Shown here piece by piece: positions 3,549 through 6,380 of a DNA stretch of 64,000 bases. Under the pieces are notes generated by a model. It did not search any database, was not told the DNA's origin, and worked only from the letters and a program-made list of their open reading frames with translations. The stretch's first letter is position 1; each line of letters begins with the position of its first letter. The DNA comes from Phycisphaerae bacterium (GTDB taxonomy: Bacteria > Planctomycetota > Phycisphaerae > Phycisphaerales > SM1A02): contig PARI01000017.1 in assembly GCA_002711415.1 (NCBI GenBank), forward strand, positions 149,726 to 213,725, read 5' to 3'. Made by a program: the position numbers and the translations under genes.

Positions 3549-4565
3549 CTATTCCAATGCGTCGGTATCCACCGAGACTCCCAGTCTCTGGCACAGGCCT
3601 TCGAACTGGTCATTGGAGTAGAAGCTCAGCGACATCTTGCCTGAACCAGGCTTGGCCCCACGAGTGATCTGCACACGGGTTCCAATCTGGTCACCGATGG
3701 CTTTCTCCAGTGCTTGGACATGTGACTTGGAGACGCCCCCCTTCCGTGTCGACGTGCCTGGTCCTGTCCGAGGATCCATGGCGTCTCGAACAGCCGACTC
3801 CAACTGCCGGACCGACCATTCATTCCGGACCGTGTTGCCAAGCAATACGTGTCGAAGCTTCAAGTCGGTACATCCAAGCAAGGCCTTCGCATGCCCCAGA
3901 GAGATCTGTTCCACGCGAAGCGCCGCAGCTGTAGTGTCATCTAAGTCACTTATTCGCAACAGGTTAGAAACGGTCGTCCGGTCAAGACCAACCTCCTTGG
4001 CGATCTGCTCATGAGTCAAGGAGAACTCGTCGGCAAGCCTTCGAAGCGCCATGGCGCGCTCCATGGGATTCAGGTCTTCTCGCTGGAGGTTCTCGATCAA
4101 GGCAAGTTCCGCGGCTTCTTGATCGGAGACATCACGGATGACGGCTGGGATCAACTCGAGTCCGATCTGCCTGGCTGCCCGCCACCGCCGCTCCCCTGCG
4201 ATCAGCTCGAATCCTCCGCCTGTCCTCCGGACGACTATTGGCTGCATCAATCCAGCTGATTGAATTGAACCAGCCAGCTGGTCAAGCGCCTCCTGGTCAA
4301 AGGTCTCCCGGGGCTGTCGCGGATTTGGACTGATTTGATCTGTTCGGATCTCATCAATCCCCTGCCTGCTCGCTCCGTTCTCTGGGCCTGCTTCCATCCC
4401 AGGCTCATCAACGGAAATCGATCCGGATGAAACGCTGGACTCAGTCTTCCGGGCAGATTTGGAGAGTTCAACTGGCACCTGGATCAGGCTCCCGAGCCCC
4501 CTGCCAAGCTTGCGTCCGGTGGACTTCTTTGGACTAGTCTTCGTGGTCTTCTTGGTCGTTGCCAT
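3549..4565 (-). CDS. parB: Chromosome partitioning protein ParB
   Basis: ParB is a parS-binding CTPase that loads and slides on DNA around the origin. This copy is 338 aa, a normal length. It has a basic N-terminus with the KLGRGLGSLI motif (residues 19-28), a ParB/Srx domain with QISPNPRQPR (77-86) and the CTP-binding box GERRWRAA (124-131), then NLQREDLNPMERA (159-171). A helix-turn-helix follows at about 183-204 and a C-terminal dimerisation domain after about 290. No parA lies beside it, although parA usually sits directly upstream. Instead, the DNA upstream of its start carries two parS-type palindromes. It lies upstream of fliD on the same strand. Confidence 0.95.
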   Translation of the reverse strand: MATTKKTTKTSPKKSTGRKLGRGLGSLIQVPVELSKSARKTESSVSSGSISVDEPGMEAGPENGASRQGIDEIRTDQISPNPRQPRETFDQEALDQLAGSIQSAGLMQPIVVRRTGGGFELIAGERRWRAARQIGLELIPAVIRDVSDQEAAELALIENLQREDLNPMERAMALRRLADEFSLTHEQIAKEVGLDRTTVSNLLRISDLDDTTAAALRVEQISLGHAKALLGCTDLKLRHVLLGNTVRNEWSVRQLESAVRDAMDPRTGPGTSTRKGGVSKSHVQALEKAIGDQIGTRVQITRGAKPGSGKMSLSFYSNDQFEGLCQRLGVSVDTDALE

Positions 4566-4728
4566 GGTTCAGTCCCCTGTGATTCGAATTGGCCCTATCG
4601 AGGCGCGACAATGGCAAGAAAGCCAAGGGCTACGACCCCAGGCCATGATTCGCAGTCAAGTTCGTTGTACTGAATCAAGATCGCTCTCCCTGGCGATTGG
4701 CGCTTCCTTGCAATATTTGAGTTATCCC

Positions 4729-4746
4729 ACGTTCCACGTGGAACGT
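4729..4746. promoter_or_regulatory. parS-type site 1
   Basis: ACGTTCCACGTGGAACGT is a perfect 18-bp palindrome containing the core GTTCCACGTGGAAC, which matches the parS core used by ParB proteins (Pseudomonas-type GTTCCACGTGGAAC). It lies about 165 bp upstream of the parB start. Confidence 0.85.
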
Positions 4747-4931
4747 CAAGAAACCCTCCCATGACACTCACTCTCAACTTGTCCACAATCCTGTCGTGGA
4801 AAACTCCGGCAAGCACTACGACCCATGAGGGCCCTGACTGAATCGAAAATCACTACTTGGGGTCTGGATGGCTGGCAATACTCGTTTCAGCCCTGGCCTA
4901 TTACCGCGATGATCCGTGGGCACCTGCCATC

Positions 4932-4940
4932 TTATCCACA
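4932..4940 (+). promoter_or_regulatory. DnaA-box-like 9-mer
   Basis: TTATCCACA is identical to the strong consensus DnaA box. A second, one-mismatch copy, TTGTCCACA, lies at 4779-4787 in the same orientation. A single perfect 9-mer can occur by chance; the weight comes from its position beside parS and parB. Confidence 0.5.
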
Positions 4941-4953
4941 GGCAAATTATGAC

Positions 4954-4969
4954 TGTTCCACGTGGAACA
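4954..4969. promoter_or_regulatory. parS-type site 2
   Basis: TGTTCCACGTGGAACA is a perfect 16-bp palindrome and a textbook parS sequence. Its centre is 224 bp from the centre of site 1. A perfect DnaA box, TTATCCACA, ends 13 bp before it. Confidence 0.88.
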
Positions 4970-5453
4970 CGATGCCGTCCAGCAATTACGAGGCCTATCA
5001 TTTTCGCCAGAAGAGGCTTCCGCGCGGAAAATAAAAAGCACGTTCGCGGCATGATCGATACATATAGATGCACTTTCGATGCAGATCGAATCATAATACG
5101 GCATATTATGAGTATGCCCCACTGTCCCTGAGATTGATTCTTGGTGGTATTCAACTGTGGGGGGATCGAATTCAATGCTGGGCACCGCGCCGGATCAAAT
5201 TGCTCACCCAGATCTCCCAGGGAACCACATCCTTCGAGGGTGAAGACCCAACATCCGATCATGTTTGATGCGTGATCAGGCCACTTTCGATGGTCCGAAA
5301 AAACAGGATGCGGTAGGGGATGAATCGGCCGTTTCCGTCATTGCGGATTTTGAATCCAACAAGCATGCGTCTGGTCACTTCCACTTGCCTGAACAGGGAG
5401 TAGGATTCCATGTCCTGCCCACTGGTGGAACGATGGACAGGGGAGGAGTCAGG

Positions 5454-6380
5454 ATGGTCCAGAGACAGTCATTCTCCGGTGTGATCGCCGCGCCATACAC
5501 ACCGTTCGATGTTAACGGCGCGATTGACTTGGGGCCGGTCAACGACCAGGTCGCGTTGTTTCAGGAGATGGGCGTCACCGGCGTGTTCATCTGTGGAACC
5601 ACCGGCGAGGGGTTCAGGATGACCGTTGAAGAACGGATGTCCCTGACCGAGCGATGGTCGCAGGTTCGTTCCGACGGCATGAGGCTCTTCGTACATGTCG
5701 GGGCGAACACCGACGAGGACAGCATCATGCTGTCGTCACATGCTGCAGGGCAGAACGTCGATGCGATCGCCGCAAGAATTCCCGTCAGTGAACCGGGTGC
5801 GGGCAGAAATGTCGCCGAGGTGCTTGACCGGCTTGACGAGATCGCGTCGGCAGCGGGGGAGACCCCCGTGTACTTCTATGACATCCCATCACTTGACGGC
5901 GATCCGATCGCGACACATGCCATTCTTGAACGTGGGCGTGATCGAATCCGGAACCTCGCCGGGGTGAAGATCTCCCACACCGATCTTGATCACCTCCAAC
6001 GATGCCTCGATGTCGGAAGTGATCACTTCGAGATCCTCTTCGGTGTCGATGAGATGCTGCTTTCAGCACTTGAACGCGGTGTGCATGGCGCCGTGGGCAG
6101 CACCTACAACTACGCGACACCTCACTATCTCAAGATGATCGAGGCCTTTGATTCCGGTGACATAGAAACCGCTCGAGAACTCCAGGACCGCTCCCGCAAG
6201 CTCGTTGATGTCCTCTACCAGTTCGGACTTCTTCGCGCGGGCAAGGCCATCATGACGATGATGGGAGTCGATTGCGGTCCGCCGAGGGATTCAGAGCAGC
6301 CGCTGAGTGTCGATGATCGACGTCGACTCAGGGACCAGATCGAGCCGCTGAACATCGTGGCGCGTCCGCTGGCCTGCTGA
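5454..6380 (+). CDS. Dihydrodipicolinate synthase / N-acetylneuraminate lyase family aldolase
   Basis: This class I TIM-barrel aldolase is 308 aa, the usual length of the family. It probably acts on sialic acid or a similar 2-oxo acid in the cytoplasm. The GTTGEG pyruvate-binding loop is at residues 48-53, the catalytic Tyr at 142 (YFYDIPS) and the Schiff-base Lys at 172 (GVKIS). The later GAVGSTYN segment resembles N-acetylneuraminate lyases more than DapA. The ATG at 5454 is chosen because GGGGAGGAG lies just upstream and the protein then begins at the first barrel strand; the frame is open back to 5265. No other sialic acid gene is adjacent, so the substrate is uncertain. Its 3' end faces the DUF1501 gene with a 13-bp gap. 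Confidence 0.87.
   Translation: MVQRQSFSGVIAAPYTPFDVNGAIDLGPVNDQVALFQEMGVTGVFICGTTGEGFRMTVEERMSLTERWSQVRSDGMRLFVHVGANTDEDSIMLSSHAAGQNVDAIAARIPVSEPGAGRNVAEVLDRLDEIASAAGETPVYFYDIPSLDGDPIATHAILERGRDRIRNLAGVKISHTDLDHLQRCLDVGSDHFEILFGVDEMLLSALERGVHGAVGSTYNYATPHYLKMIEAFDSGDIETARELQDRSRKLVDVLYQFGLLRAGKAIMTMMGVDCGPPRDSEQPLSVDDRRRLRDQIEPLNIVARPLAC

Follow-up and report, generated by a model that had tools for sequence, protein, structure and literature searches.

The stretch of DNA analysed here (the window: 64,000 nucleotides, positions 149726-213725 of contig C16) carries parB and, upstream of it, two parS sites, and this locus is very probably a chromosomal ParABS centromere and not the replication origin oriC. 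In kind, it is an ordinary chromosome-partition locus. The initial annotation had offered two readings of the region, the main centromere of this lineage or part of its replication origin. The former is borne out by a full ParB gene, by two parS sites found nowhere else in the assembly and by a parB-parS linkage that is conserved in the order; position, uniqueness and conservation together support it well, with ParB binding itself as an inference. The latter is contradicted by an origin-like gap beside dnaA, by a skew change-point at dnaA, and by the parS sites of relatives, which are devoid of DnaA boxes. Since the skew switch lies far from the parS gap, an observation that the initial annotation had itself named as speaking against an origin, this half of the proposal has to be given up. 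For a little-studied Planctomycetota lineage, probably of the Phycisphaerales, the centromere is thereby clearly placed, and a likely origin is located apart from it.

The parB gene and the two parS sites

The features considered are the following (positions of the window):

3549-4565, minus strand: parB, 338 amino acids, with ParB_N, HTH_ParB and ParB_C dimerisation domains; chromosomal Spo0J/ParB type
4566-5454, no strand: gene-free gap of 889 bp with 51.7% GC, from the parB start to the aldolase start, holding the parS sites
4729-4746, no strand: parS1, ACGTTCCACGTGGAACGT, a perfect 18-bp palindrome, 164 bp upstream of the parB start
4779-4787, plus strand: near-match DnaA box TTGTCCACA, 32 bp after parS1; not conserved in relatives
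4932-4940, plus strand: perfect DnaA box TTATCCACA, 13 bp before parS2; not conserved in relatives
4954-4969, no strand: parS2, TGTTCCACGTGGAACA, a perfect 16-bp palindrome and consensus 16-mer, 389 bp upstream of the parB start codon
5091-5111, no strand: AT-rich inverted repeat TCATAATA-cggca-TATTATGA, with 8-bp arms and a 5-bp loop

The elements on which the initial annotation had built its case are all present, namely the two perfect parS-type palindromes, the perfect DnaA box 13 bp from the second of them, the near-match box, the AT-rich inverted repeat and the gene-free stretch, which had been given as 890 bp and in which no convincing gene was found. A search of the same gap, 4566-5454, for an Rfam family, a tRNA or a convincing promoter was equally negative.

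The protein encoded by parB scores over the Pfam cut-off for all three of its domains (PF02195, PF17762, and PF23552) and reaches 170 bits against the NCBIfam model TIGR00180, while its CTPase and helix-turn-helix parts align with solved ParB/Spo0J chains with E-values down to 7e-47. Its identity to the ParB proteins of relatives is about 41-51%, and the CTP-pocket motif GERR (G124, E125, R126, and R127) is invariant among them; its nearest named neighbours come from metagenome assemblies of Planctomycetota and Phycisphaerales. On the side away from the gap, parB is adjoined by fliD. Beyond the gap lies a gene for a DapA/NanA-type aldolase. Its frame opens at 5265 with TTG, but translation probably begins with the ATG at 5455, which is preceded by a good ribosome site.

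The GTTCCACGTGGAAC-type core shared by the two palindromes is the one that serves as parS in Myxococcus xanthus, Pseudomonas aeruginosa, and P. putida, and the 16-mer of parS2 is the P. putida parS consensus (PMC7022226). When the assembly (2.80 Mb in 45 contigs, 94% complete) was searched for the 14-mer GTTCCACGTGGAAC, exactly two copies were found, both in the gap, and no copy with one mismatch was found in the whole assembly; places with two mismatches are near background, with 28 assembly-wide vs 19 for a reversed control pattern. The initial annotation had regarded many equal palindromes spread over the chromosome as an argument against its reading, and no such spread was seen. Within the window, the parS 16-mer with up to three mismatches gives three matches vs 0.17 expected, and a perfect 14-bp palindrome of any sequence arises in 6% of gaps simulated with a first-order Markov model of the gap.

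Conservation of the parB-parS linkage in the order

A ParB match is present in 60 of the 61 genomes of the order, and the site GTTYCACGTGRAAC in 48 of the 61. By manual count, this site lies within about 2 kb of parB in 35 of 37 genomes, the count taking in only the 37 genomes among the matches listed with sites; of the remaining two, G022 carries its sites away from parB, and contig edges leave G035 undecided. At the sequence level, the placement of parS next to parB is a conserved feature, shared by nearly every relative checked.

Some genomes deviate from the usual pattern. G022 and G041 have seven to eight GTTTCACGTGAAAC-type sites distributed over several contigs, none of which is on the parB contig in G022. 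G018, G012, and G014 are without the usual parS and have TGTTCCCCGTGGAACA-like sites by parB, an asymmetric parS variant.

A split ParABS system

The initial annotation had called parB an orphan. A ParA protein (AAA_31, 182 bits) is however encoded at position 56281 of contig C31, a contig other than that of parB, and ParA-type matches occur in 60 of the 61 genomes of the order. No parA was found next to parB in the window or in the parB flanks of 29 relatives, these flanks being mostly about 1.5 kb long and covering 1.2-1.7 kb upstream in 27 of them. In the seven family members that have both genes on one contig at this distance, parA lies 13-18 kb from parB; in others it lies further away or is unlinked. 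Since parA is located elsewhere in the genome and is not adjacent in relatives either, parB is better described as a member of a split ParABS system than as an orphan. In no genome of the order was parA found adjoining parB; with this, the clear centromere and the separate likely origin, chromosome partition there becomes directly testable.

On a larger scale, 80 loci drawn from many phyla were compared, and 68 of them have parA just upstream of parB. These loci at first suggested that the two genes are separated in every PVC genome, an impression that was dropped: 11 of 30 Planctomycetota loci, from other parts of the phylum, have a ParA-like match beside parB.

The likely replication origin adjoins dnaA

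On contig C16, dnaA is found at 42.6-44.1 kb on the minus strand, about 111 kb from the parS gap, and its product corresponds to the NCBIfam DnaA equivalog, with 455 bits against a cut-off of 344. Directly after the dnaA stop codon comes a gap of roughly 285 bp (about 42.3-42.6 kb), followed by a gene that was assigned as MutM-like by reading of the sequence. No other 300-bp stretch in the surroundings is as low in GC (35%), and the gap holds CTATCCACA-acaaa-TGTGGATAA, that is, a near and a perfect DnaA box placed face to face. An enrichment of DnaA boxes after dnaA is conserved in the order: with one mismatch allowed, 24 genomes have 40 boxes in the 800 bp after dnaA (2.08/kb) vs 21 in the other 164 kb examined nearby (0.13/kb), a 16-fold enrichment (p = 7.5e-25), and at least one box is present in 20 of the 24. 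Most likely, the oriC of this genome therefore adjoins dnaA at about 42 kb of contig C16, outside the window.

The distance from this likely oriC to parS is about 112 kb, or 4% of the genome. With the assembly split into 45 contigs, placement is limited to contig C16. In 17 of the 21 genomes in which both genes were found on one contig, dnaA and parB lie within about 160 kb of each other. In P. aeruginosa, parS is functional inside a zone of roughly 650 kb around oriC (PMC5098823), and the spacing of 112 kb fits the rule that parS lies on the origin side.

Gene strand confounds the raw GC skew of contig C16, and the skew was therefore calculated anew from four-fold sites after the gene-strand effect had been taken out. 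The change-point of this corrected skew falls between the genes at 41.9 and 43.3 kb and spans the dnaA gap, with a statistically modest significance (reached by 41 of 1000 permutations). No change of the corrected skew was found at parS, where the statistic is 0.1, with -0.067 on the left vs -0.063 on the right. In the same line, the raw skew of three relatives turns 8-50 kb from dnaA and not at parB. G025 has its minimum at 253 kb (dnaA at 243 and parB at 196), G008 turns at about 1411-1450 kb (dnaA at 1403 and parB at 1556), and G049 does so at 627-650 kb, 10-34 kb from dnaA (616; parB at 773). The skew evidence from relatives is mainly one of raw skew, since G025 shows no significant change-point after correction for gene strand. 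The cumulative G-C at dnaA is a maximum in the genome of the window vs a minimum in the relatives, and this opposite sign could stem from a local inversion, a reversed polarity or a wrong assembly join.

Two further observations concern dnaA. In G046 (contig C1) and G042 (contig C2), which belong to family f2 of the same order, the parB-parS locus is about 1.1 Mb from dnaA; in G046, a noisy skew turns near dnaA, and parS there seems to be far from the origin. Besides, the genome of the window encodes, on contig C11, a second full-length DnaA-like protein of 486 amino acids, 35% identical to the first over 318 amino acids, which scores 329 bits against the DnaA model, just under the cut-off. 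Two DnaA-type proteins are found in nearly all genomes of the order.

DnaA boxes beside parS and alternative explanations

The presence of DnaA boxes close to parS speaks for the origin reading, according to which the gap at 4566-5454 would be oriC itself with embedded parS sites. The boxes are rare: the whole genome has only five copies of TTATCCACA and eight of TTGTCCACA, and among 2000 simulated gaps of the same composition (first-order Markov), 1.5% contain one TTRTCCACA and none contains two or more. This reading is nevertheless extremely unlikely, considering that dnaA has its own AT-rich, box-bearing gap 112 kb away, that the corrected skew is flat at parS, and that 29 relatives were found to have no DnaA box within 1 kb upstream of parB. 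The gap itself, with 52% GC, has a 21-bp repeat as its only AT-rich element and no extended AT-rich unwinding element; instead of the DnaA-box cluster that would accompany such an element in an oriC, its 889 bp hold a single perfect box and a single near-match. Compared with the usual bacterial oriC beside dnaA, which in the same genome probably lies at about 42.3-42.6 kb of contig C16, it is thus without an extended AT-rich element, a skew turn and conserved boxes. The idea that a parS site accompanied by a DnaA box marks an origin is thereby corrected, as the combination need not do so.

How the boxes came to lie there is a separate matter, for which chance or a lineage-specific link between DnaA and parS may account. 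Their pairing, one box 13 bp from parS2 and a near box 32 bp from parS1, is unlikely by composition, so that DnaA may yet have some role at this place; in addition, boxes at the parS of Caulobacter crescentus are bound by DnaA, which is able to trigger partition there (PMC6399470). A centromere in which such a link would modulate the behaviour of the segrosome or the expression of parB would add to the best explanation, although we regard it as rather improbable: none of the other genomes among the 181 of the family has TTRTCCACA up to 30 bp before parS in the same orientation, the 29 relatives have no box upstream of parB, and selection is not demonstrable from one genome. With the arrangement confined to a single genome, a functional DnaA link is not separable from chance. 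That DnaA would bind beside parS at 112 kb from oriC, a Caulobacter-like link arisen independently in Planctomycetota, is similarly doubtful.

Finally, the palindromes might serve only as an operator for autoregulation of parB, or be the sites of a plasmid- or Noc-type ParB, in both cases without a centromere role. The location of parS within the parB promoter region goes in this direction, as does a score of 208 bits of ParB to the Noc model, but the latter is far below the cut-off of 315. Moreover, the site fits a chromosomal parS and is conserved together with a chromosomal ParB across the order, the neighbours (fliD and the aldolase gene) are ordinary chromosomal genes, and no second ParB of the same type was found in the genome, all of which makes this explanation very unlikely.

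Comparison with known systems and proposed mechanism

In the collection of papers searched, no direct study of planctomycete ParABS or replication origins was found. The centromere described here resembles the ParABS systems of M. xanthus, P. aeruginosa, and P. putida in its parS core, its full-length chromosomal-type ParB and the position of parS on the origin side. It differs from them in that there are only two parS sites, both by parB, in that parA is outside the parB operon, and in that parS and the likely oriC are about 112 kb apart. The likeness to C. crescentus (PMC6399470) consists of DnaA box sequences beside parS, whereas the distance of parS from the origin is about 8 kb in that species vs 112 kb here, where the boxes are putative and not conserved in relatives.

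In the mechanism that we propose for the centromere, ParB would load as a CTP-dependent clamp at both parS sites and then spread, and ParA, encoded elsewhere, would pull the ParB-parS complexes apart. This separation would come soon after the fork from the dnaA-side origin has duplicated the locus, given a distance of 112 kb or 4% of the genome. ParB probably also tunes its own expression, because parS sits in the parB promoter region. The AT-rich inverted repeat is, taken alone, at about chance level (DNA fold z = -1.75); it could be due to chance, or it may be the site of a regulator acting on the aldolase gene downstream.
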